This document shows positions 4,958-60,323 of a stretch of 64,000 nucleotides of DNA, one piece after another. The stretch spans positions 2,575,001 through 2,639,000 of the forward strand of contig NZ_JAZHRR010000001.1 of the NCBI RefSeq assembly GCF_036924515.1. The letters run 5' to 3'. Under the pieces are notes generated by a model. It ran no database searches. It saw only the letters and a list, made by a program, of their open reading frames with translations, and was not told the DNA's origin. Numbering within the stretch: the first letter of the stretch is position 1; every line of letters starts with the position of its first letter. This DNA is from Bradyrhizobium sp. AZCC 1610. GTDB lineage: Bacteria > Pseudomonadota > Alphaproteobacteria > Rhizobiales > Xanthobacteraceae. Position numbers and translations under genes: made by a program.

Positions 4958-5836
4958 ATGCACTTTGATGTCATCATTATTGGCGGCAGTTTCGCCGGCC
5001 TGTCGGCGGCGCTTCAACTGGGCCGGGCGCGTCGGACCGTGCTCGTCATCGATGCGGGGCAGCGGCGCAACCGCTTTGCATCGGCCTCTCATGGTTTTCT
5101 GGGCCGGGATGGCGTTGCGCCGGGCGAGATCATCGCCGAAGCAACGAGACAGTTGGCGCGCTATGTTACCGTCGCAACCCTGAAGGGATCCGCATCAAAG
5201 GCGGGGCGCACGGAGGAGGGGTTTTACGTCGAGACGCACAACGACATCTTCCGCGGCAAGCGGCTGATCCTTGCCGGTGGCGTCGCCGATATCCTGCCTG
5301 ACATCCCGGGCCTCGCCGATCGCTGGGGCACCTCGATCTTCCACTGCCCCTATTGTCATGGTTACGAACTCGAACGAGGCCCGATCGGCGTTTTGGCCAC
5401 CAGTGCGTTCTCCATGCATCATGCCATGATGCTGCCCGACTGGGGTCCAACCACGCTTCTGATCAACGACAGCTTTATCCCCGACGAAGCACAATTGTCA
5501 GCTCTGGCTATGCGGAGGGTCTCGGTGGAGGAGGGGCGCGTCCGGCAGATATTCGGTCAGCGCCCGACCGTTGAACTCGCAAATGGCCGCACGATTGAAT
5601 TCGCCGGCATCTTCACGCTTGGCCGGACCATGGGAGGGCCGATTGCCGAACAGCTTGGCTGCGATTTGAAGGACGGACCGCTCGGAAAATTCATCGGGGT
5701 TGATGAGCAGCAGCAAACGTCAGTTCCCAAAGTATTTGCCTGTGGCGACGTCGCGCGCGCCGCCGGATCGATCGCGCTCGCGGTATCAGACGGAAGCATG
5801 GCGGGCGTGGCCGCCCATCGATCCCTCATCTTTTGA
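4958..5836 (+). CDS. Thioredoxin-reductase-like NAD(P)/FAD oxidoreductase
   Basis: The 292-residue protein has the short two-domain build of thioredoxin-reductase-like flavoproteins. An FAD-binding GxGxxG-type motif opens it (DVIIIGGSFAGLSAALQLGR), a CPYC redox motif is at about residue 131 (FHCPYCHGYE), and the FAD-binding end motif KVFACGDVARAAGSIALAV lies near the C-terminus. The second nucleotide-binding region reads GPIGVLATSAFSMHHAMML, which lacks the clean GxGxxA of true TrxB, so NADPH use is uncertain. Similar proteins act with disulfide or dithiol partners such as holomycin-type oxidases. A dedicated Rrf2 regulator faces it. Confidence 0.88.
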   Translation: MHFDVIIIGGSFAGLSAALQLGRARRTVLVIDAGQRRNRFASASHGFLGRDGVAPGEIIAEATRQLARYVTVATLKGSASKAGRTEEGFYVETHNDIFRGKRLILAGGVADILPDIPGLADRWGTSIFHCPYCHGYELERGPIGVLATSAFSMHHAMMLPDWGPTTLLINDSFIPDEAQLSALAMRRVSVEEGRVRQIFGQRPTVELANGRTIEFAGIFTLGRTMGGPIAEQLGCDLKDGPLGKFIGVDEQQQTSVPKVFACGDVARAAGSIALAVSDGSMAGVAAHRSLIF

Positions 5837-5854
5837 TCTCGGCTCGAAGGGGGG

Positions 5855-5910
5855 ATTAGCTCAACGGGCCCGCGCGAAGCGCGGCCCGATGGGCGTAATC
5901 CACCACATCC
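5855..5910. repeat. Interspersed palindromic repeat, copy B
   Basis: The segment CAACGGGCCCGCGCGAAGCG, then CGGCCCGATG and GCGTAATCCACC, closely matches copy A at 608-700. It sits between convergent genes. Nothing coding is seen in the rest of 5837-5977. Confidence 0.6.
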
Positions 5911-6982: not shown

Positions 6983-7348
6983 GACTGTTTACTCCCGTTC
7001 TGGATGTACAACCTCTGGTGTTGTTTCGTTCTTTTGCCCCAGAAGAATTAATGATGTGTCAAAGCAAAGCTGACATGTTGTGCGCGGGGTCAATCTGCCG
7101 CAGGCGAGGTGTGAGTGGTGACATTCCCAGGTTGCAGGTTGAGATACCGATGCCATCACCTTTGAAGGTGGATGGATCATGCCTCCCTGCAAGGAGTTCG
7201 TTTCGGTCGGGTCGGAAACTGCGAGGAGCCTCGCATTGCCGCTTCACCGTTCCCTCGCGAAAAAGTGAGGTGGCCTGCTCGCCGGCATGTCGGCTTCGGT
7301 CCATCCCGCTCGTCTTCCACCCAGAGAGATCTGAAGTGGAGACCAGGA
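6983..7348. other. Intergenic region without a recognised gene
   Basis: This 366-bp gap separates the RTX-like gene from the MFS gene, which diverge, so it should hold both promoters. An open frame continuous with the MFS gene runs through part of it but has no family resemblance and no good ribosome site. I see only a short hairpin CACCTTTGAAGGTG near 7159 and no palindrome strong enough to call an operator. Confidence 0.4.
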
Positions 7349-8560
7349 ATGGAAAATTCTCACTATCGCTGGGTGATCGTCGCGGCCGGTGGCCTGCTCG
7401 GCTGTGTCGCGATCGGAGGCATGTTTTCGCTGCCGGTGTTTTTGCAGCCGATCGCGCGGGACACCGGCTGGTCGGTCACCGGCATATCCAGCGCCATGAC
7501 CATCGGCTTTCTCGCCATGGCCTTCACCAGCATGGTCTGGGGCACTTTGTCCGATCGGCTGGGGCCGCTGCCAGTGGTGCTGACAGGCTCAGTCGTGCTG
7601 GCGGTGAGCCTGGGGCTGGCCAGCCTTGCGACCTCGCTGGTCGTCTTTCAATTCGTCTTCGGGCTGATGGTGGGGGCCGCCACCGCTGCGATCTTCGCGC
7701 CGATGATGGCTTGCGTCACCGGCTGGTTCGATACCCATCGCAGCCTTGCCGTGTCGCTGGTCTCAGCCGGCATGGGAATGGCGCCGATGACGATGTCGCC
7801 GCTCGCCGCCTGGCTGGTCTCGAACCATGACTGGCGGACCTCGATGCAGATCGTGGCCCTCGTCGTCGCGGCGATCATGATCCCGGTCTCATTGCTGGTG
7901 CGCCGCGCGCCGGCGCTGGCTGCCGGGCCGTCGGCGCCATCAGACGATCCGGCGCAAGCGGACATGACGCTGGCGCAGGCGCTGCGCTCACCGCAATTCA
8001 TCATCCTGCTGCTGACGAACTTCTTCTGCTGCGCCACGCATTCGGGACCGATCATCCACACCGTGAGCTACGCCATCAGTTGCGGCATCCCGATGATCGC
8101 GGCCGTGACCATCTACAGCATCGAGGGTCTCGCCGGGATGGGCGGCCGTATCGCCTTCGGCCTGCTCGGCGACCGCTTTGGCGCCAAGCGCGTGCTCGTG
8201 TTCGGCCTGCTGGCGCAGGCGTTCGGTGCGCTCGGTTATGTCTTCGTGCGCGAGCTCGCCGCGTTCTATGCAATCGCGGCGCTGTTCGGCTTCATCTATG
8301 CCGGCACCATGCCGCTCTACGCTGTTTTGGTGCGCGAAAACTTTCCGCTGCGGATGATGGGCACCGTGATCGGCGGCACCGCGATGGCCGGCAGCCTCGG
8401 CATGGCAACGGGTCCGCTCGCCGGCGGTTTGATCTACGATACGTTTGCCAGCTACGCCTGGCTCTATCTCGGCTCGTGGATCATGGGTCTCGGCGCGTTC
8501 CTGATCATCCTGACGTTCCGGCCGATGCCGGTGGCACGGGCGGTGCCGGTGCCGGCGTAA
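7349..8560 (+). CDS. MFS transporter, monocarboxylate/oxalate-formate antiporter-like
   Basis: The ATG at 7349 gives 403 residues, about 12 membrane segments. The first starts at WVIVAAGGLLGCVAIGGMFS. MFS motif A-like sequence lies between helices 2 and 3 (GTLSDRLGPLPV) and a second copy appears mid-protein (GLLGDRFGAKRV), typical of the two six-helix halves. A charged loop with Ala/Pro/Asp residues separates the halves. The overall pattern resembles bacterial relatives of monocarboxylate and oxalate/formate transporters, but the substrate cannot be named. A longer frame starting at 7172 is possible; it would add a non-hydrophobic tail unlike the family. The gene appears to stand alone. Confidence 0.88.
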   Translation: MENSHYRWVIVAAGGLLGCVAIGGMFSLPVFLQPIARDTGWSVTGISSAMTIGFLAMAFTSMVWGTLSDRLGPLPVVLTGSVVLAVSLGLASLATSLVVFQFVFGLMVGAATAAIFAPMMACVTGWFDTHRSLAVSLVSAGMGMAPMTMSPLAAWLVSNHDWRTSMQIVALVVAAIMIPVSLLVRRAPALAAGPSAPSDDPAQADMTLAQALRSPQFIILLLTNFFCCATHSGPIIHTVSYAISCGIPMIAAVTIYSIEGLAGMGGRIAFGLLGDRFGAKRVLVFGLLAQAFGALGYVFVRELAAFYAIAALFGFIYAGTMPLYAVLVRENFPLRMMGTVIGGTAMAGSLGMATGPLAGGLIYDTFASYAWLYLGSWIMGLGAFLIILTFRPMPVARAVPVPA

Positions 8561-8569
8561 CCTCTCCAT

Positions 8570-8603
8570 CATTCTCCGGTGTGCAATTGCACATCGGAGA
8601 ATG
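8570..8603. terminator. Bidirectional stem-loop between convergent genes
   Basis: A 34-base near-perfect palindrome with arms CATTCTCCGGTGTGCAA and TTGCACATCGGAGAATG lies 10 bp after the MFS stop and 13 bp before the end of the facing cupin gene. Only two positions fail to pair. It lacks a long T tract but is well placed to terminate both transcripts, and it may be a member of a repeat family. Confidence 0.6.
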
Positions 8604-8615
8604 ACGAGTGGGGAC

Positions 8616-9101
8616 TTACTTCTCCACGTGCTGATGAACGAACGTCGCCAGCGGCTGGCCTTGCTCGACGATGTAGGTCGAGAGCATCCGTCCCGTCTCC
8701 GGACCGAGGTCGCGCGCATTGTGCGGGGTCCGCGGCGGGATGAGGAAACCGTCGCCGGCGCGCAGGATGACGGTGGGACGCCCCTCGACCTTCATCTCGA
8801 CCTCGCCGGCGATGATGTAGCCGACCTCTTCGCCGGGATGAACGTGCCATCCGGACTCGACGCCTGCGGGAATCTCCGTCTCTACCTGCACGATCTCGCG
8901 GCCTGGGATCGATGACGGCGCGCGCTGGATAATGCGCCGGGTAAGCTTGCCGGCCAGATCGTCGCGTGGCCGATCGGATGCCGCTGAGGTTCGATCACCC
9001 GCGGTGCCCTGTGTCGTCTGAGCCGGTGCGGCTGAAAGCATTAGAGCCAGCGCGAGCGCGGTCACCGGAATAAGTGAGAAGCCCTTGGATAACGTACGCA
9101 T
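8616..9101 (-). CDS. Exported cupin-domain protein
   Basis: A 161-residue protein with a signal peptide (LIPVTALALALMLSAAPAQ, cleavage about residue 28). The single conserved cupin barrel has motif 1 GWHVHPGEEVGYIIAGEVEM, giving two His and one Glu as metal ligands, and motif 2 LRAGDGFLIPPRTPHNARD, giving the last His. Exported single-domain cupins of this type are common near stress genes in Bradyrhizobium and have no settled function; metal-dependent oxygenase, isomerase or binding roles are all possible. The neighbour on the same strand upstream is a glyoxalase-like gene, 85 bp away, so co-transcription from the OhrR-type promoter is possible. Confidence 0.85.
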   Translation of the reverse strand: MRTLSKGFSLIPVTALALALMLSAAPAQTTQGTAGDRTSAASDRPRDDLAGKLTRRIIQRAPSSIPGREIVQVETEIPAGVESGWHVHPGEEVGYIIAGEVEMKVEGRPTVILRAGDGFLIPPRTPHNARDLGPETGRMLSTYIVEQGQPLATFVHQHVEK

Positions 9102-52544: not shown

Positions 52545-52668
52545 CAAATGTGAGTCGCTGCTTCCTGTCGAACACCGTGCATAACACGGTTAGGCCCGGA
52601 AGCACGAACGCGCAGCATCGAACGCGGTGACGCCGACCCTAAAGCGCGCTTCGGTGGGACTGCCTTTG

Positions 52669-53472
52669 TCAGAGAGCGACAGGCATGAGCGAGCCGGTGA
52701 ACAGGACCGGACCCGACGGCTGCCCCGTCGTCGAGCCGTCCCTTGGCTCCAGGCTGACGGCGAGCGCCGCTTGGGCCAGCGCTTCGGCAGTGGCGTGCGG
52801 CAGCACGAGAGCCGTCGTTGTGCCGGGGCGCTCACTCGGGAAAAGGCCAAGCGAGCGGCGCGTGCCGTCCGGGGACACCAGCCAGACCTCAAGCACATTG
52901 CTGTTGAAATCACGGGGCGGCGTGAGGTTGAGCCGCAGCACCAGCCGTCCGTCGGCAACGTCGAGATCCGCCGTCATCATCGGACGCTGATCCTTGTCGA
53001 GCAGCACCGCCACGTGCGTGGGCGGCGAGGCTACCAGGCCCTTCGTTGTGTCCTCGATGCGTGCAAGCCGCTTGTCGAGCGCCGCAATCTGCTCCGGTGC
53101 AACACTCTGCGGGAGCGAAACGACGTAGAGGAGCAAGGCCGCCGCCGTAGCTGCGGCCAAGGCAGCCGCGCCGCGCCAGAAGCCGACGCTGTCCCACAGC
53201 CGATCGAACCAGCCTTCGCGTACCGGTGCTGCCGGTGCACGTGCCAGCGCGATCTGCCGGGCAATCTCGTCCCAGACATGCGCAGCCGGCTCCTCGGCCG
53301 GGACCGACTCGGCGAGGGGATTAAGCCTCTGTTCCCAGCGTTCCACGAGATCGCGCAGGTCGCGGTCGCCGGACAACAGCCGCTCGAAACGGCGGCGCTC
53401 GGCGCCGCTCAGCGTGCCGAGTACGTATTCGGCCGCCAGTAGGTCACGCGTTTCCGGTTCGACGTAGTTCAT
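52669..53472 (-). CDS. Anti-sigma factor, RskA/ZAS type
   Basis: ATG at 53472 overlaps the sigma stop by 4 bp, so both are translationally coupled. 267 residues. The N-terminal cytoplasmic domain (DLLAAEYVLGTLSGAERRRF) follows the anti-sigma pattern of the RskA family; one membrane helix lies near ALAAATAAALLLYVVSL; the periplasmic C-terminal RskA domain has DLDVADGRLVLRLNLTPPRD and VWLVSPDGTRRSLGLFPSER. The protein should hold the ECF factor inactive until a periplasmic or membrane signal triggers its cleavage. Confidence 0.9.
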   Translation of the reverse strand: MNYVEPETRDLLAAEYVLGTLSGAERRRFERLLSGDRDLRDLVERWEQRLNPLAESVPAEEPAAHVWDEIARQIALARAPAAPVREGWFDRLWDSVGFWRGAAALAAATAAALLLYVVSLPQSVAPEQIAALDKRLARIEDTTKGLVASPPTHVAVLLDKDQRPMMTADLDVADGRLVLRLNLTPPRDFNSNVLEVWLVSPDGTRRSLGLFPSERPGTTTALVLPHATAEALAQAALAVSLEPRDGSTTGQPSGPVLFTGSLMPVAL

Positions 53473-54098
53473 CGTTCCAAACACCCCCTGAGCCGGATCA
53501 GGCTTCGCCGAACCCAACTCTTCACGGTGCCGAGCGGCACGCCCACATGGGCTGCCACCTCCTGGTACGTCATACCCTCATAATATATCAGCTTGAGGGT
53601 ATTGCGCGGCCCCTCCTCGAGTTTGTCAAGGCAGTCCTGCAGGCGGCGGGCATCGCGACTAAGCACCGCCTGATCGGCCGGATGCGATGCCGGGTCCTCG
53701 CGGTCCTCAATCGGTGCATCATCGAGTGGCGCCTCGCGCCCGCGCCGTCGTATGACATCGATGCACCGGTTCCGGACGATGCGGGCGAGCCAGGCCATCG
53801 CAGCACCGCGACTGGGATCGAAGGTGTGCGCGTTGCGCCAAACGAGAACAAAGCAGTCCTGTATGATTTCCTCGGCTGTTTCACGACTCCTGAGAATACG
53901 CAGAGCGAGTCCGAATAGTTGCGGTGCCGTTCCCTTATAGAGGCTATGCAGGGCAGTCTGATCGCCGCTGGCACAGGCCTGCAGCAGGGTCTCGGGACTC
54001 TGCGTCGTCTCCGCATCTGGGGCTGCCGGTCGGATGGATCGGCTGATCACCCGCTCATCAGAGCTCGACACGAAGCTGACCGTCTTGATTTCCGGCAT
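53469..54098 (-). CDS. ECF sigma factor (SigK-like)
   Basis: ATG at 54098 gives 209 residues. Region 2 is FGLALRILRSRETAEEIIQD followed by CFVLVWRNAHTFDPSRGAAM; region 4 is IYYEGMTYQEVAAHVGVPLG then TVKSWVRRSLIRLRGCLER. This matches the SigK/RskA-regulated ECF group, and the anti-sigma gene overlaps by 4 bp downstream. The protein should direct RNA polymerase to a small regulon, possibly including its own operon and neighbours. Earlier ATG codons exist upstream in the same frame but without family support. Confidence 0.9.
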   Translation of the reverse strand: MPEIKTVSFVSSSDERVISRSIRPAAPDAETTQSPETLLQACASGDQTALHSLYKGTAPQLFGLALRILRSRETAEEIIQDCFVLVWRNAHTFDPSRGAAMAWLARIVRNRCIDVIRRRGREAPLDDAPIEDREDPASHPADQAVLSRDARRLQDCLDKLEEGPRNTLKLIYYEGMTYQEVAAHVGVPLGTVKSWVRRSLIRLRGCLER

Positions 54099-54415
54099 TT
54101 CGACTCGTCGGATTCTTCTGCGCGAGGTCACATGCGACGGCATCTGCTTGTTCGCCCCTGTCGCCTGACCACACCGCGCCCGCAGCGGGCGGTTGGCAAC
54201 GACTGCGCGGGTATTGTGCGTAGTCGACAGCAAGGTAGCGAGCGCGCCTGCTCTCATCGCCTTTAACCTTAGCACCAACCCGACGGACACTTAAGCCAAC
54301 AAGTTGATCGTACACGACGCGGTTCCACGGATGTGCGTGACAGGTTCCACGGGCGTGCGTGAAAGTTGGGCCCGCGCATCTCCAACTATCGGACAGCACG
54401 AGGCTGGCTCGGCAG
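54099..54415. other. Region between sigma gene and exporter permease, with 22-bp tandem repeat
   Basis: A direct repeat of 20 bp with 22-bp period lies at 54321-54340 (GGTTCCACGGATGTGCGTGA) and 54343-54362. On the minus strand each unit contains GTGGAACC, which resembles the GGAAC -35 element of many ECF sigma promoters, upstream of the sigma gene at 54098. I see no clear -10 and no other gene in this gap. Confidence 0.45.
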
Positions 54416-55648
54416 TCACGCGTACCGCAACGCTTCGATCGGATCGAGCCGCGACGCACGCAGCGCCGGAAACCAGCCGAAGAACACGCCGACGAATCCG
54501 GAAAACAGCACTGCCAGCACGATCCATTCCGGCTCAATCAGCAGGGGCCACTGGGCTAGGCTCGCGATTGCGCAGGCGGCGAGGATCCCGGTCAGAATGC
54601 CGATGGCGCCGCCAATGAGCGACAACGCGATTGCCTCGAACATGAATTGTTTCAGGATATCACGTGGACGCGCGCCGATCGCGAGCCGCAGCCCGATCTC
54701 GCGCGTGCGCTCGGTCACCGACACCAGCATGATGTTCATGATGCCAATGCCGCCCACCGCGAGCGAGACCCCGGCGACGATCGCGAGCAGCAAGGCAAGC
54801 GTGCCCACGCTTTCTTCCTGCGTCGCCGCAATGTCGGCGAGGTTGCGGACCGTGAAGTCGTCGTCCTGCATCGGCTGCCGACGGTGACGCTGGCGTAGCA
54901 GCATCTTCACGTCGCTCTCCGCCGCGGCGAGGCTCTCCCCCTCGCGCACTTTGAGATAGAAAGAGTCGACCGAGCGCGAATTGGCTGCATTGCGGCCGAT
55001 CACCCGCTGGCGCGCCGTGTTGAGCGGCAGGAGCACGACATCATCCTGGTCGTGGCCCCAGGCGGATTGGCCCTTTCTTGCCATCACGCCGATCACGCGG
55101 AACGGCACGTTGCGCACCCGCAACTCCTGCCCGACCGGATCGAGCCCGCCATAGAGCGCGCGCGCCACGGACTGCCCAATCAATGCCACCTGCGCCCCGC
55201 GGGCGATCTCGTCCGGCGCGAACAGTCGACCCGATTCCACGTCCCAGTCGCGCGCCTCGAACAGGCCAAGATCGACGCCGTAGACCAGACTCGACCAGTT
55301 GACGCCGGCAGCGATCAGTTGGGCATTTTCGCGAACGAATGGCGCGGCTACCTGCAGCAACGGCACTTCCCGCACGGCCGCCGCTGCATCCTCGTCAGTC
55401 AATGAGGAAGCGGAGCCTGAGCCGAGGCCCACGCCGGATTTGGTGATGCTGCCCGGCATGACCACGAGCAGGTTGGCGCCGAGGCTGCGGAACTGCGCCG
55501 CGACCTGCTCGCGTCCACCGCTGCCGACCGCCACCATCGCTATCACGGCTGCAACGCCGATGATGATGCCAAGTATCGTCAGGGAGCTGCGCAGCTTGTG
55601 CAGCCGCAGCGCGTCGAGCGCTGAGATGACCGCATCAGCAAACGTCAT
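54416..55648 (-). CDS. MacB-like ABC exporter permease (FtsX/MacB_PCD)
   Basis: A 410-residue membrane protein. Helix 1 is SLTILGIIIGVAAVIAMVAV near residue 30, and three more helices lie toward the C-terminus (LLLAIVAGVSLAVGGIGIMN, ALSLIGGAIGILTGILAACA and WIVLAVLFSGFVGVFFGWFP), the FtsX fold of MacB. The large periplasmic domain carries ANLLVVMPGSITKSGV. Here the ATPase is a separate protein, overlapping by 4 bp. MacB-type systems export peptides, toxins, haem or lipids from the periplasm with a MacA adaptor and an outer-membrane channel. Confidence 0.9.
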   Translation of the reverse strand: MTFADAVISALDALRLHKLRSSLTILGIIIGVAAVIAMVAVGSGGREQVAAQFRSLGANLLVVMPGSITKSGVGLGSGSASSLTDEDAAAAVREVPLLQVAAPFVRENAQLIAAGVNWSSLVYGVDLGLFEARDWDVESGRLFAPDEIARGAQVALIGQSVARALYGGLDPVGQELRVRNVPFRVIGVMARKGQSAWGHDQDDVVLLPLNTARQRVIGRNAANSRSVDSFYLKVREGESLAAAESDVKMLLRQRHRRQPMQDDDFTVRNLADIAATQEESVGTLALLLAIVAGVSLAVGGIGIMNIMLVSVTERTREIGLRLAIGARPRDILKQFMFEAIALSLIGGAIGILTGILAACAIASLAQWPLLIEPEWIVLAVLFSGFVGVFFGWFPALRASRLDPIEALRYA

Positions 55649-56400
55649 GCTGCCGTCTCCGCGAAGTCTGGCATGATCTCGACCGGGCTTGCGACCAGCT
55701 TGGCGGCAGCGTCGTCCGGGCGCTGTGGTCTGTCACTCAGCACGCGACCGTCGCGGAAACGCACGAGGCGCGACGCAAACCGCGCCACCTCGGGTTCGTG
55801 GGTGACGACGACAACGGTCGTCCCTTCATTGTTCAGTTCCTGGAACAGCGCCATCAGCTCGAGCGAGGTGCGGCTGTCGAGCGCACCGGTCGGCTCATCG
55901 GCGAGCAATAGCCTTGGTGTGTTGACGAGTGCGCGGGCGATGGCGACGCGCTGTTGCTGCCCCCCCGAGAGCTGTGTCGGCTGATGATACAGGCGCTCGG
56001 CGAGGCCAACGCGGGTGAGTGCGGCCGCGGCTTTGTCGCGTCGTCGCCTGCGCTCCTCTCCGGCGTAAATCGTCGCCAGTTCCACGTTTCCAAGCGCATC
56101 AAGACGCTCAAGCAGGTTGAACTGCTGAAACACGAAGCCGATCTTGCGGTTGCGCACGGCAGCGAGCGCATCGCGACTCATCGCCGACACTTCCTCGCCG
56201 TCGAGGCGGTAGCGGCCGGAGGTCGGCCGGTCGAGGCAGCCGATCAGGTTCATGAACGTTGACTTTCCCGAGCCCGACGGACCCATGATGGCGGTGAATT
56301 CGCCGGCCGCGACCGAAAGCGTCACCTCGCGCAGCGCATGCACGGCTTCGTCGCCGAGCCGATAGACGCGGGTGAGCTGCTCGGTCTCGATGAGCGACAT
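55645..56400 (-). CDS. MacB-like ABC exporter ATPase
   Basis: A 251-residue ATPase of the LolD/MacB type: Walker A GPSGSGKSTFMNLIGCLDRP, signature TQLSGGQQQRVAIARALVNT, Walker B LLADEPTGALDSRTSLELM and the switch His VVVTHEPEVARFASR. It pairs with the permease encoded immediately downstream (overlap 4 bp) and the adaptor immediately upstream (gap 10 bp). Together they form a complete adaptor-ATPase-permease operon. Confidence 0.93.
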   Translation of the reverse strand: MSLIETEQLTRVYRLGDEAVHALREVTLSVAAGEFTAIMGPSGSGKSTFMNLIGCLDRPTSGRYRLDGEEVSAMSRDALAAVRNRKIGFVFQQFNLLERLDALGNVELATIYAGEERRRRRDKAAAALTRVGLAERLYHQPTQLSGGQQQRVAIARALVNTPRLLLADEPTGALDSRTSLELMALFQELNNEGTTVVVVTHEPEVARFASRLVRFRDGRVLSDRPQRPDDAAAKLVASPVEIMPDFAETAA

Positions 56401-56410
56401 GGTGTCCTCT

Positions 56411-57814
56411 CTACAAGCTGCCGGGTGGCGTGGTCTTCGCCTCGGCGGTGCGCGGTCCGCCGCCGATGATCACCTCGCGGCCGGGCTCGAGGCCCGATAC
56501 GATCTCGGTTGATGCTCCTTCGGTTGCGCCGATGCGGACCGTGACCCCTTGCGGCTTGCCGTCCGGCCCGACCACGAAGACCCGCCCAGGCTGCGTGGCC
56601 CGATTGCGTTCGACGAGGGCGGCATTCGGCTCGCCGGACAGATTGCTTCCTTGAGACTGCGAAACCTGTGCGCCGGAAACGTCGCTGGTCGTCGGGGGAC
56701 GCCAGCGCAAGGCGGCACTCGGGACCTGCACGGCCCCGTCGCGCCGGTCGGTTTCGATCCGCAGCGTGGCGGTCATTCCCGGCAGCAGCTCGAGACGCGG
56801 ATTCTCGATCGAGACGATTGCCGTGTAGATCACCACGTTCTGTATGGTCTGCGACCCCAACCGCACCTGCTTGACGGTTCCCTCGAAGGTTCGCCCGGGA
56901 AAGGCGCCTACCGTGAATGTCGCGCGCTGGCCCGGCTTGATACGGCCGACGTCGGCCTCGTCTATATTGGCGGATATCTCCATTTGGCGAAGATCGTCCG
57001 CTACCAGGAACAAGGTCGGCGACTGCAGCGCGGCCGCGACGGTCTGACCAAGCTCGACCTGACGCTGAACCACGACGCCGGAAACCGGCGAGCGGATCTC
57101 CGTGTTCCGGAGATCGACCTCGATCTGTCTGACCGTGGCCTCGCGCGCGGCGACCTGCGCGGCCGCGGCTGCAAGCTGCGCCTCTGCCACGCGCTGATCG
57201 GCTTGGAGGCCAACGAGCTGCGCCTTGGCGGATTTGAGCTGCGCTTTCACCGAGTCGAGGCTCGCACGCTGGGCATCGCGTGTCGTCCGGGCCGCATCGA
57301 GCATCGCCTCAGCGGTGACGCCGCGCGCACGCAGCTCGCTCTGACGCTGGTAAGTGCGCTCGGCGTCGGCGAGCAGCGCCCCGTTGCGAGCGATCTGCGC
57401 TTCGATCTCTGCCTCGGCAGCTCGGGCCTTTTCCGTGTCCGCGCGCACGCGCTCGATCTGCGCTTTCTGCACCAGCTTCTTGGCGCGGGCCTGCTCGAGA
57501 TCGGCGCGCGCCGCATCGAGCTTGGCGAGGATCTGGTCTGAATTGAGCCGCGCCACCACTTGCCCCGCCTTCACATTGGAATTGTAGTCGGCAAGGAGTT
57601 CGACGACCTGGCCCGAGAGCTGCGAGCCGACGATAACTGTCGTGGTTGGATTGATGGTGCCGCTCGCGCTTACCGTGGCAACGATTTCGCCTTCGTTTGC
57701 CTTGGCGAGTCGGTAGGACGGCTGGGCCGGCGCACCGCTCCAGTGCGGAAAGAAATGGAAAGTGCCCGCGGTGGCAGCGGCGATGGCAAGCAGGGTGATC
57801 AGCAGGCGGCGCAT
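56411..57814 (-). CDS. MacA-like periplasmic adaptor (HlyD family)
   Basis: ATG at 57814 gives 467 residues: an N-terminal membrane anchor (LLITLLAIAAATAGTFHFF), the lipoyl half TVSASGTINPTTTVIVGSQL then SGQVVELLADYNSNVKAGQV, a long coiled coil (about residues 90-230), the second half IRSPVSGVVVQRQVELGQTV and a beta-barrel domain. MacA bridges MacB to an outer-membrane channel such as TolC, stimulating its ATPase. No TolC homologue is encoded in the window. The gene heads the three-gene exporter and lies directly after the two small peptide genes. Confidence 0.92.
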   Translation of the reverse strand: MRRLLITLLAIAAATAGTFHFFPHWSGAPAQPSYRLAKANEGEIVATVSASGTINPTTTVIVGSQLSGQVVELLADYNSNVKAGQVVARLNSDQILAKLDAARADLEQARAKKLVQKAQIERVRADTEKARAAEAEIEAQIARNGALLADAERTYQRQSELRARGVTAEAMLDAARTTRDAQRASLDSVKAQLKSAKAQLVGLQADQRVAEAQLAAAAAQVAAREATVRQIEVDLRNTEIRSPVSGVVVQRQVELGQTVAAALQSPTLFLVADDLRQMEISANIDEADVGRIKPGQRATFTVGAFPGRTFEGTVKQVRLGSQTIQNVVIYTAIVSIENPRLELLPGMTATLRIETDRRDGAVQVPSAALRWRPPTTSDVSGAQVSQSQGSNLSGEPNAALVERNRATQPGRVFVVGPDGKPQGVTVRIGATEGASTEIVSGLEPGREVIIGGGPRTAEAKTTPPGSL

Positions 57815-57886
57815 CTGTGACGATCCCCCTCCATTTCTCCAGTTGAGTGCCGCGTGACGCGTGATAGGTCGCGATTGGCAACGGCG

Positions 57887-57918
57887 GCAGAGGCCGACCG
57901 GCGGCGGACGGCCTCTGC
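57887..57918 (-). terminator. Stem-loop after peptide gene 1
   Basis: On the minus strand GCAGAGGCCG pairs with CGGCCTCTGC across a 12-base loop, a perfect 10-bp stem, 17 bases after the peptide 1 stop. Copy 2 has an equivalent hairpin at 58477-58508. No T run follows, so partial read-through into the adaptor gene is likely. Confidence 0.6.
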
Positions 57919-57934
57919 GTCTTGCTGCAAGCAA

Positions 57935-58063
57935 TCAGAGCGGTACGTAATACAGAGGCACTGCCCTCCAGCTAAACCAGTGCGCCGACGCGCTATCGAC
58001 GGCGGACACGGTCGCCAGAGCCAGGACGGCCACGGCGAGTGCGATGCGGAACTTATCCGGCAT
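57935..58063 (-). CDS. Tiny secreted peptide precursor 1 (42 residues)
   Basis: An unlisted small gene: ATG at 58063, TGA at 57937-57935, with a strong AGGAG ribosome site 8 bases upstream. Product: PDKFRIALAVAVLALATVSA, then VDSASA, then HWFSWRAVPLYYVPL. The signal peptide has a basic start, hydrophobic core and a canonical ASA cleavage site, predicting a 15-residue mature peptide rich in Trp and Tyr. A paralogue lies 461 bp upstream at 58525-58659 and shares nearly the entire signal peptide and the mature core AVPLY. The gene is 120 bp before the MacA-like adaptor. Confidence 0.75.
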   Translation of the reverse strand: MPDKFRIALAVAVLALATVSAVDSASAHWFSWRAVPLYYVPL

Positions 58064-58205
58064 GATGCTCTCCTGTTTTCGCTCACGTGAGCGACGTTAG
58101 GTTGCTGTCATCGGAGCGGCGTGATTGTCGCTCCTGTCTGCCGGTACGAATTCAGGGTACGGTTCGGATGCAGGCCTCGCGCATTTGTGAGCTGGTTGCA
58201 GGTAG

Positions 58206-58352
58206 AGCATGATCCGGACCCGGAGGGCCGCGTTAGCGCAAAGTGGAAACCGGTTTTCCCTTAGCTAACAAACGCGAAGCGTTTGCTCGGAGATCACGCT
58301 CGAACAATGCGATGAGATCATGATGCGATTCCATGTAATCGCATCATGATCT
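58206..58352. repeat. Interspersed repeat and perfect 16-bp-arm palindrome
   Basis: The stretch after GAGCATGATCC contains AAAGTGGAAACCGGTTTTCC, a repeat familiar from Bradyrhizobium. Further on AGATCATGATGCGATT (58315-58330) and AATCGCATCATGATCT (58337-58352) form a perfect inverted repeat around CCATGT. It lies between the two peptide units; no gene is visible here. Confidence 0.6.
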
Positions 58353-58476
58353 ACATGGTCTACGCAAGATCGCCTCGCCGCGGTAACCACGCGCGCTATT
58401 GCTGCTATTTTTGGAACGGCGTCGCGACGGCTTCGTCCGGCCGCAAGCTTCGCGATGGTCGCGTCTGGCGACACCT

Positions 58477-58508
58477 GCAGAGGCCGCCCGGCGGCGGGCG
58501 GCCTCTGC
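58477..58508 (-). terminator. Stem-loop after peptide gene 2
   Basis: The minus strand again has GCAGAGGCCG pairing with CGGCCTCTGC, 17 bases after the peptide 2 stop. Loop bases differ slightly from unit 1, while the stem is kept. Confidence 0.6.
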
Positions 58509-58524
58509 GTCTCGCTGCAAGCAC

Positions 58525-58659
58525 TCAGTACGGTATGCCGTACAGAGGCACTGCGAACCAGCTCCAGTTAAGTATGCCCGCCGACGCGCTATCGACGGCG
58601 GACACGGTCGCCAGAGCCAGGACGGCCATGGCGAGTGCAGTGCGGAACTTGTCCGGCAT
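58525..58659 (-). CDS. Tiny secreted peptide precursor 2 (44 residues)
   Basis: ATG at 58659, TGA at 58527-58525, with AGGAG ribosome site. Product: PDKFRTALAMAVLALATVSA, VDSASA, then GILNWSWFAVPLYGIPY. The signal peptide matches precursor 1 at 24 of 27 positions or better, while the predicted 17-residue mature part differs except for the core AVPLY and a final proline-rich end. Conserved signal and variable, aromatic mature peptide is the pattern of secreted signal or toxin peptides. It lies just downstream of the membrane cyclase gene, in the same direction. Confidence 0.75.
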   Translation of the reverse strand: MPDKFRTALAMAVLALATVSAVDSASAGILNWSWFAVPLYGIPY

Positions 58660-58814
58660 GATGCTCTCCTGTTTCGCTCATGCGAGCGACGTTAGGTTGC
58701 TGTCATCGGAGCGGCGTGATTGTCGCTCCTGTCTGCCGGTACGAATTCAGGGTACGGTTCGGATGCAGGCCTCGCACATTCGTGAGGATGCACCCGTCGC
58801 GCGCTTCAGGACCA

Positions 58815-60323
58815 TCAGCAAGCGACGTTGGCACATGTCCAGATGCCGACCGGTTGCTCGAGACCGCGAATGATCTGTGCCGGCTGCTCGACGAGCAACG
58901 CGAAGTCGGCGCTTGAATGGCTCGATTCCGCCCGGGCCTGCCGCACCAGCGCGTCGCTGACCACGATGGCGCATCCGAATTCGCGGGTAAGCGCCTCGAG
59001 CCGGCTCGCCGCATTCACGGTGGTGCCGATCACAGCGAATTCGAGCCGGTTGAGGCCGATATCCCCGAGCACGACCTGACCATAGTGCAATCCGACACTG
59101 ACCTGGATCGGCGGTTCGGTGCGATTGCTTCGTTCTCTGTTCAACTCGGCGATGGAGCCGATCATAGCCCTGGCGCAACGCAAGGCATTCAACGCATCGG
59201 AATCGCCGGCGAACGGCGTGCCGAACGTCGCCATAAGGCCATCGCCGAGGTACTTGTCGAGCGTTCCGCCGTGCTGAAACACCTCTCTTTCCATTCGTTC
59301 GTGGAATTGTCGCAGTGTATCGATGACCTCCTTCGGGTCTCGTCTATCGGCGTAAGCAGTGAATCCCACGATATCGGCAAACAACACCGCGACGTCCTGT
59401 GTGCGAACCCGCGTGAGCGGCTCGTCATTGCCGGACAATTCATTGACGACGTTGGGTGAGAAATAACGCGCCAGGTTGGCGCGTTCGCGTTCGATCCCGG
59501 CGTGGCTGATCAGAAGCGCATTCGAACGGCGCACCATCAGCGCCAGGATCGCGGCGACGATGATGAACACGGTGACCTGCTGGAAGCGCGCGCCGAAGCC
59601 GATCGACGAGGGATCGATGATCTCGAACATGCGAATATCAGCGCCGACTGCTTCCCTGACGCGCTCCGACAGCGCGGCATGGCTTTCCGGCTGCAGGTAC
59701 GACCAACCGACCGCGATGGCCCACAGGGCCGAGGTCCAGAAGCCAATCGCGATCACCGTTCGCCACGAATAGGCGAGGGTGGCGGTGGCAAGGAAGATGA
59801 AGAAGTAGATGAAGCTGTCGAACCGGAATTGCATTCCGATCGGCCAGTGAACGCTGCTCCATGGATTGGGTACGACGCTGAGGAAGGTCAGCAGCGCGAG
59901 GTCGCAAAATATCAGGAAAAGTTCGGGACGCGAACGGCCCACCTTGCCGACCTTGAGTTGGGCCCATCCGATCAGCGCAAAGAAGCCCAGCATCAGGACG
60001 TAATAGATCACGTCCCAGTTCGGGTTGATGATCGGCAGGGTAACGGCAGTGACTGCCAGCGCGACCCAGCGGGCCCGGACGGCGAGCAGCAGTCCATCAC
60101 GCTTGCTGTCGGCAAGGGCGGCTTCGGCGAATTTCAGGGTGTCCTGCCGGGCGTCGGCTCGCCCGGCCGTTTCGCTCCGGAGATTTGTGATATCAGCCGC
60201 TTCCGCCAATGCGCTCAAGACACTCGTCCCCAAACTAAATGTATCGGATGATGCACTATGCCACGGCACCCGATGCCGTTCGCGCTGACATGATACCACC
60301 GGAGGGCGTGCGCCCCTAGCCAT
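58815..60323 (-). CDS. Membrane-bound class III nucleotide cyclase
   Basis: From ATG 60323 (8-bp overlap with the HAD gene) about 502 residues; a TTG at 60218 is an alternative start. The N-terminal half has six membrane helices (for example YVLMLGFFALIGWAQL and FIYFFIFLATATLAYSW), then a helical linker and the catalytic domain: VLFADIVGFTAYADRRDPKE (first Asp), GTLDKYLGDGLMATFG (Lys and second Asp), FAVIGTTVNAASRLE (Asn, Arg). The base-contact residue (usually Thr or Asp before VIG) is Ala here, so substrate preference is uncertain. It may regulate the small peptide genes directly downstream. Confidence 0.88.
   Translation of the reverse strand: MARGARPPVVSCQRERHRVPWHSASSDTFSLGTSVLSALAEAADITNLRSETAGRADARQDTLKFAEAALADSKRDGLLLAVRARWVALAVTAVTLPIINPNWDVIYYVLMLGFFALIGWAQLKVGKVGRSRPELFLIFCDLALLTFLSVVPNPWSSVHWPIGMQFRFDSFIYFFIFLATATLAYSWRTVIAIGFWTSALWAIAVGWSYLQPESHAALSERVREAVGADIRMFEIIDPSSIGFGARFQQVTVFIIVAAILALMVRRSNALLISHAGIERERANLARYFSPNVVNELSGNDEPLTRVRTQDVAVLFADIVGFTAYADRRDPKEVIDTLRQFHERMEREVFQHGGTLDKYLGDGLMATFGTPFAGDSDALNALRCARAMIGSIAELNRERSNRTEPPIQVSVGLHYGQVVLGDIGLNRLEFAVIGTTVNAASRLEALTREFGCAIVVSDALVRQARAESSHSSADFALLVEQPAQIIRGLEQPVGIWTCANVAC

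Follow-up and report, generated by a model that had tools for sequence, protein, structure and literature searches.

The stretch of DNA analysed here, 64,000 nucleotides from Bradyrhizobium sp. AZCC 1610 and called the window below, holds a cassette of seven genes that may form a dedicated peptide-secretion unit (Table 1). Along the minus strand the order is pep1 and pep2, which encode two very small precursors, followed by the genes of a MacA-like adaptor, a MacB-like ATPase, a MacB-like permease, an extracytoplasmic function (ECF) sigma factor and a RskA_C anti-sigma factor. The original prediction, made from the letters of the window, had listed these genes in this order and reading leftward. 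A check of the open reading frames (ORFs) bore it out, as all seven genes and the adjoining cyclase gene were found on the minus strand in the expected places. The ATPase gene starts 10 bp after the end of the adaptor gene, and two gene pairs overlap (ATPase/permease and sigma/anti-sigma). The sigma pair does follow the exporter, as predicted, but 317 bp lie between the permease and sigma genes. The two small genes had been described as tandem. Both ORFs exist with their AGGAG ribosome sites, yet they do not constitute a tight operon, as they are 461 bp apart and each has its own conserved upstream region and hairpin; a further 120 bp separate pep2 from the adaptor gene.

Table 1. Features of the cassette and its surroundings (positions in the window, except in the last row, where they are those of the loci named)
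Feature	Positions	Strand	Basis
pep1, 44-aa precursor, predicted mature peptide GILNWSWFAVPLYGIPY	58525..58659	-	ORF and Shine-Dalgarno site, conservation, hydropathy
pep2, 42-aa precursor, predicted mature peptide HWFSWRAVPLYYVPL	57935..58063	-	ORF and Shine-Dalgarno site, conservation, hydropathy
pep1 conserved upstream region, presumed promoter and 5' untranslated region	58660..58770	-	identity between paralogues and species
pep2 conserved upstream region	58064..58175	-	97% identical to its pep1 counterpart
GC-rich hairpin after pep1, 14-bp stem, no T run	58477..58508	-	hairpin kept in carriers
GC-rich hairpin after pep2, one internal mismatch	57887..57918	-	hairpin kept in carriers
MacA-like periplasmic adaptor, 467 aa, one N-terminal membrane segment	56411..57814	-	PF16576, TIGR01730; MacA chains; hydropathy
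MacB-like ATPase, 251 aa, separate from permease	55645..56400	-	PF00005; closest NCBIfam model is MacB (its ATPase half), under the cut-off
MacB-like permease, 410 aa, four membrane segments and large periplasmic domain	54416..55648	-	PF12704, PF02687; MacB chains; hydropathy
ECF sigma factor, 209 aa	53469..54098	-	TIGR02937 over cut-off; SigK model below cut-off
RskA_C anti-sigma factor, 267 aa, one membrane segment	52669..53472	-	PF10099; hydropathy
Whole cassette, about 6.2 kb, seven genes (ends approximate, set by eye)	52565..58788	-	blastn of window against seven non-carrier loci; junctions in three relatives
Cyclase gene (guanylate cyclase domain), old neighbour of radA, outside cassette	ending at 58815	-	Pfam/NCBIfam
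Small secreted-like protein upstream of a MacA-MacB set (same genes in L050, L052)	L221 (G138) 5556-5903; L222 (G553) 7407-7736		

The seven genes are one unit, inserted as a block between the cyclase gene and radA. In blastn against seven non-carrier loci the cassette stretch was unmatched, while the flanking DNA aligned, and no cassette gene (E<=1e-4) was found in any of the seven non-carrier Bradyrhizobium loci around radA (L162-L168). The site is near-bare in four of them (L162, L163, L166, L168), with the cyclase and RadA matches 103-113 bp apart; L164 and L165 hold other genes there, about 1.8-2 kb, and the cyclase is missing in L167. This junction looks like a small insertion hotspot that takes varied cargo. 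The cargo in L164 (11195-12809) is a PALP-family enzyme and a 154-aa protein of no assigned family, and that in L165 (3180-4798) is a DUF5131 protein and an equally unassigned one of 293 aa. The cyclase, which had been counted as part of the system, adjoins radA in relatives that have no cassette and is therefore an old neighbour of the site. At the other end, the DNA just upstream of radA (52548-52668) differs from that of the non-carriers, which may make the expression of radA in carriers dependent on DNA of the cassette. The base composition does not look foreign, the GC fraction of the cassette being 0.649 and that of its flanks 0.645 and 0.608. Pfam and NCBIfam gave no match to an integrase or transposase domain in any of the seven genes, and a PADLOC search for a link to anti-phage defence returned just generic ATPase, LolE-type and weak helix-turn-helix matches.

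In a scan of both strands over the full 64 kb, pep1 and pep2 were the sole ATG-initiated ORFs of 35-60 aa with a strong Shine-Dalgarno site, a hydrophobic segment and an AxA motif. The AGGAG ends 6 nt before the ATG in both. Each precursor has one hydrophobic segment, and a Sec-type signal was judged from hydropathy together with the AxA motif. This motif is ASA at residues 25-27 and is invariant in the ten precursors of five carrier genomes; the four residues preceding it vary among carriers in pep2. The predicted mature peptides, 17 residues for pep1 and 15 for pep2, are aromatic, nearly uncharged and free of cysteine, with the consensus GI(x)NWSWFAVPLYGIPY for pep1 and (H/G)WFSWRAVPLY(Y/L)(V/I)PL for pep2. 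Pfam, NCBIfam and PADLOC assigned neither peptide to a family.

The frames themselves are conserved, as the original prediction had supposed: both are intact in all ten copies from the five genomes. The 105 bp before the start codon are 96.5% identical between pep1 and pep2 within a genome and about 97% identical between species. The signal parts are 85% identical between the paralogues and 89-92% between species, and the mature parts are 70% identical within a genome and 97% (pep1) or 96% (pep2) between species. Since the upstream regions are so alike, and the mature parts are so different within one genome yet so well kept between species, two products stand under one type of control region, a region that is shared or homogenised while the two different products are kept. 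The genome has just two full copies of this upstream region; elsewhere there are short partial matches. Between the pep1 and pep2 units (58230-58400) lies repeat-like sequence with palindromic parts, of which 38 bp match the carrier genome G087 in inverted orientation and a 34-base piece is single-copy in the window.

We consider it extremely improbable that the ORFs are accidental and that the conservation is that of a duplicated regulatory RNA or promoter. The tails differ between paralogues and little between species, and the ribosome sites, the unbroken frames and the invariant cleavage motif all speak for translation, as do the indels, which are in frame inside the ORFs (3 nt in one species, 6 nt between paralogues) and of 1-2 nt just upstream. 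What such a reading can claim is that the paralogues resemble each other more closely in their upstream DNA than in their ORFs, and that the codons are weakly constrained. Among variable codons the ratio of nonsynonymous to synonymous was 6:8 in pep1 and 11:5 in pep2, together 17:13, and in the mature parts 1:3 and 3:0, respectively; the neutral expectation is a nonsynonymous fraction of 0.72-0.79.

A hairpin follows each peptide gene in all ten copies; the stretches that were folded have energies of -24 to -37 kcal/mol, and there is no T run. Together with the conserved C-terminus at the stop codon and the position of pep2 120 bp from macA, these hairpins would suit a leader or translation-arrest peptide that controls the exporter mRNA in cis. 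Such a role is nevertheless highly improbable. The pep2 hairpin leaves the ribosome site of macA uncovered, and pep1 stands with its own upstream region and hairpin far from pep2. Moreover, in a chain of 42-44 residues the signal would hardly have emerged from the ribosome by the time the stop codon is reached.

Peptides and exporter occur together within the genus. A cassette-type MacA (E<=1e-90) was present in five of 265 Bradyrhizobium genomes, namely that of the window, G087, G103, G585 and G634, and each of these carries both peptides along with the sigma and anti-sigma factors. We take G103 to be Bradyrhizobium sp. CSA112 (L065) and G585 to be B. algeriense RST91 (L064). In a set of 195 genomes the peptides were found (E<=1e-8) in three, two copies each, and these are the same three that hold the cassette-type MacA. 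The proposed association of the peptides with this exporter thus held, and in this set no credible peptide was found apart from the exporter, the other matches having E>=0.019 and lying mostly in longer frames. When 22 genomes that have a related MacA were searched with the peptide alignment, all matches were partial (best E 0.0185), and plasmid records gave no peptide match. Four non-carrier matches among 270 genomes of the class (E 0.0016-0.0098) were rejected as relatives; the best of them (L217) is antisense to a longer ORF and was put down to chance, and the other three lie within frames of 402-781 codons. A radA tree built from 29 sequences groups the strain of the window with the non-carriers G023 (support 99) and G019 (98), and sets the carriers together with G019 and G023 apart from the remainder only weakly (69). 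Gain followed by loss and recombinational exchange both fit this distribution.

The domain architecture of the exporter is that of a MacAB-type pump. The adaptor matched PF16576 (HlyD_D23; 59.1 bits, cut-off 30) and TIGR01730 (RND_mfp; 166.3 bits, cut-off 94.9), the ATPase matched PF00005 (ABC_tran), and the permease matched PF12704 (MacB_PCD; 174.3 bits) and PF02687 (FtsX; 78.5 bits). By sequence the permease matches solved MacB chains (5nik, E=1.7e-69) and the adaptor solved MacA chains. The labels of the original prediction therefore stand as architecture, but not as family assignments: the adaptor reached 134.7 of the 342 bits needed for the NCBIfam MacA model, and the ATPase and permease, which are halves encoded by separate genes, reached 289.6 and 276.6 of the 966 bits needed for MacB. 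The exporter resembles MacAB and is not its NCBIfam equivalog, and we use "MacA" and "MacB" for resemblance. Candidates for a TolC-type channel elsewhere in the genome amount to six OEP matches in three ORFs.

The sigma pair had been called SigK-type and RskA-type. Both the RskA_C and the sigma70-ECF domains are present, but the SigK assignment fell short, at 158 of the 226 bits needed by the NCBIfam model. The anti-sigma factor matched PF10099 with 56.5 bits against a cut-off of 29.4. Its membrane segment spans residues 102-120 by hydropathy and is followed by 147 residues, this C-terminal part presumably being periplasmic. In the 195-genome set the sigma factor is 98-100% identical among the three carriers, and the next matches are at about 42-43%. 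In a set of 397 genomes of the order, and apart from the two carriers in that set, the anti-sigma factor has its best match at 42% identity (E 1e-24). Eighteen loci with an anti-sigma relative were searched over up to 1.5 kb on each side; none showed a match to the adaptor, the permease or the peptides, and one had a weak match to the ATPase (28% identity, E 1e-5). The presumably periplasmic residues of the anti-sigma factor, and the presence of the sigma pair with the peptides in every carrier, could also be explained if the peptides were autoinducers that bind this part and trigger the sigma factor, the pump setting the pheromone level. We regard this as improbable. A search limited to exact two-block motifs gave no promoter element common to the sigma gene and the two peptide genes, and we know of no RskA-type regulator that serves as a peptide receptor.

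The reading that we prefer, and to which we give an even chance, is that of a self-contained peptide-secretion cassette in which Sec-secreted peptides are expelled by a dedicated MacAB-type pump under ECF control. From what is directly established (the gene content, the kept frames, the block insertion, the co-occurrence within the genus, the conserved cleavage motif and the domain architecture) we infer every biochemical step, including Sec processing, transport, immunity, regulation and target. Pep1 and pep2 would be made as Sec precursors, and signal peptidase I would cut after ASA to leave the 17- and 15-residue aromatic peptides in the periplasm. There the MacA/MacB-type pump would capture the mature peptides, which would be expelled through a TolC-type outer-membrane channel encoded elsewhere, for which the three ORFs are candidates. 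The same pumping would keep the peptides off the membranes of the producer and so double as immunity. The membrane anti-sigma factor may read the state of the envelope by its periplasmic part and release the ECF sigma factor, turning the cassette on. Once outside the cell, the peptides would most likely target close relatives or the producer itself, serving as a narrow antagonist or a signal.

A number of observations weigh against the secretion cassette, the first of them from relatives of its exporter. These were drawn from the 397-genome search and a scan of genome contigs, and an orientation-corrected upstream scan covered 30 loci: the carriers L064 and L065, the 17 nearest relatives and 11 more distant ones, with 1.5-2.5 kb scanned in the 30 loci and up to 3 kb in 20 of them. 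The 17 nearest are non-carrier loci of other Hyphomicrobiales (L036-L049, L066-L068), with adaptors 51-72%, ATPases 67-78% and permeases 58-73% identical to those of the cassette. None of the 17 has a peptide match or a similar small aromatic secreted ORF upstream; the one small secreted-like frame, an 83-codon lipoprotein-like ORF 2 kb upstream in L239 (the place of L049), is not aromatic. Nor was a sigma or anti-sigma match (E<=1e-3) found in these loci, 13 of which have at least 4 kb of sequence downstream, the examined stretch after the last exporter gene being 1.5 kb or less in the other four (L226, L232, L234, L238). The pump family thus does not need the peptides, and the cassette pump looks to have been recruited from a lineage of exporters that functions without them. 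A more distant MacA (39-42% identical, E 1e-78 to 1e-62) is likewise present without these peptides in five other Bradyrhizobium genomes of the order sample. The cassette is dispensable, given that the non-carriers G019 and G023 fall among carriers in the radA tree. No outer-membrane channel gene or separate immunity gene lies within it, and the exact-motif search left it with no promoter element in common between its peptide and sigma genes. The codon ratio is just weakly below neutral, with the pep2 tail at 3:0, and codon statistics alone are weak. Finally, the peptides are free of cysteine, whereas disulphide bonds are said to be common in the peptides that MacB transports (PMC5985334, excerpt).

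The relatives also differ in the make-up of the pump. In 14 of the 17 (L066, at 7001-8656, L036-L041, L045-L049, L067 and L068) the adaptor has about 80-100 extra residues, between about 373 and 411 of the cassette numbering, that are missing from the cassette adaptor; this part of the L066 protein had no Pfam match. Six of the 17, all from one genus (L226-L231), have no permease relative within the 11-19 kb examined (L226 only 1.5 kb after the ATPase gene). The MacA and MacB-ATPase relatives adjoin in these loci and other genes follow the ATPase gene where inspected; the large frame that comes next in L227 and L230 is one that we take to resemble adenosylhomocysteinase.

The existence of pump relatives without such peptides speaks for the strongest rival to secretion, in which pep1 and pep2 are uncleaved small inner-membrane proteins whose aromatic periplasmic tails regulate the pump or the anti-sigma factor, and the pump has a different cargo, for instance a drug, a lipid or a siderophore. 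The single hydrophobic segment of each precursor fits this arrangement, and YknW (PMC5985334, excerpt) is an accessory membrane protein of a pump from this family in Bacillus. We hold it to be unlikely, though a serious contender. The ASA motif is invariant in all ten precursors while the four residues before it vary in pep2, as expected of a cleaved signal, and two diverged tails are both kept.

A parallel to the proposed secretion cassette was found among the 11 more distant MacAB loci. In two of them, L050 (Bradyrhizobium, G138) and L052 (G553, from a different family in the order), a secreted-like protein of 110-116 aa stands directly before MacA. It has a signal-like N-terminus and two cysteines, the two proteins are 38-42% identical to each other, and there is no Pfam match. 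This protein may be a second, unrelated substrate family, and the recurrence of the arrangement with unrelated sequence would, by analogy and on two cases, favour the substrate-plus-pump reading. No match to the cassette sigma or anti-sigma factor was found in the 15-16 kb read at these loci; L221 has a different ECF-type sigma gene (Sigma70_r2, r4_2, DUF6596) on the opposite strand, 1.3 kb past the exporter. The distant loci L223-L225 had no peptide or sigma match. One may go further and suppose that the peptides are at once pump cargo and the periplasmic cue for the RskA-type anti-sigma factor, in a two-peptide system of communication or antagonism that is one instance of a wider alphaproteobacterial theme of unrelated small secreted proteins directly upstream of MacAB pumps. 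Taken as a whole, this extension is rather improbable.

The original prediction knew of no described system with this combination, and we found no description of it in the open-access papers searched, most subscription journals being outside the scope of the search. Both peptide genes are short enough for gene callers to miss. With two candidate substrates, its own regulator and relatives in which the site is near-bare, the cassette would allow substrate, immunity and regulation to be probed jointly in a soil bacterium, and the substrate range of the MacB family is named as an open question in PMC5985334 (excerpt).

Two peptide-handling systems come closest. Escherichia coli STII reaches the periplasm by Sec and leaves it by MacAB-TolC (PMC5985334, excerpt); the likeness lies in a small Sec-secreted peptide, periplasmic maturation and export by a MacA/MacB pump, which for the cassette are proposed. 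STII is disulphide-bonded (PMC5985334, excerpt), whereas the cassette peptides have no cysteine. The cassette also differs from MacAB-TolC in having its ATPase and permease encoded separately and in its attached ECF pair. The STII gene is not known to be fixed to its pump. In Bacillus, YknWXYZ has an adaptor, a separate ATPase and a separate MacB-type permease, and YknXYZ (PMC5985334), or YknWXYZ (PMC5985334, PMC4887032; all in excerpt), protects from the endogenous Sec-dependent peptide SDP. This likeness is one of arrangement and proposed role, and the host of YknWXYZ is Gram-positive. The SDP producer genes lie elsewhere than the YknWXYZ operon, in which we know of no ECF pair. The cassette pair itself is like the SigK-RskA pairs in its overlapping genes, its RskA_C domain and its one membrane segment, and differs in a sigma factor that falls below the SigK cut-off. 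By analogy with these systems, the cassette would work like the MacAB/YknXYZ type of peptide handling, with the addition of an ECF pair and with peptides that match no family in Pfam, NCBIfam or PADLOC.

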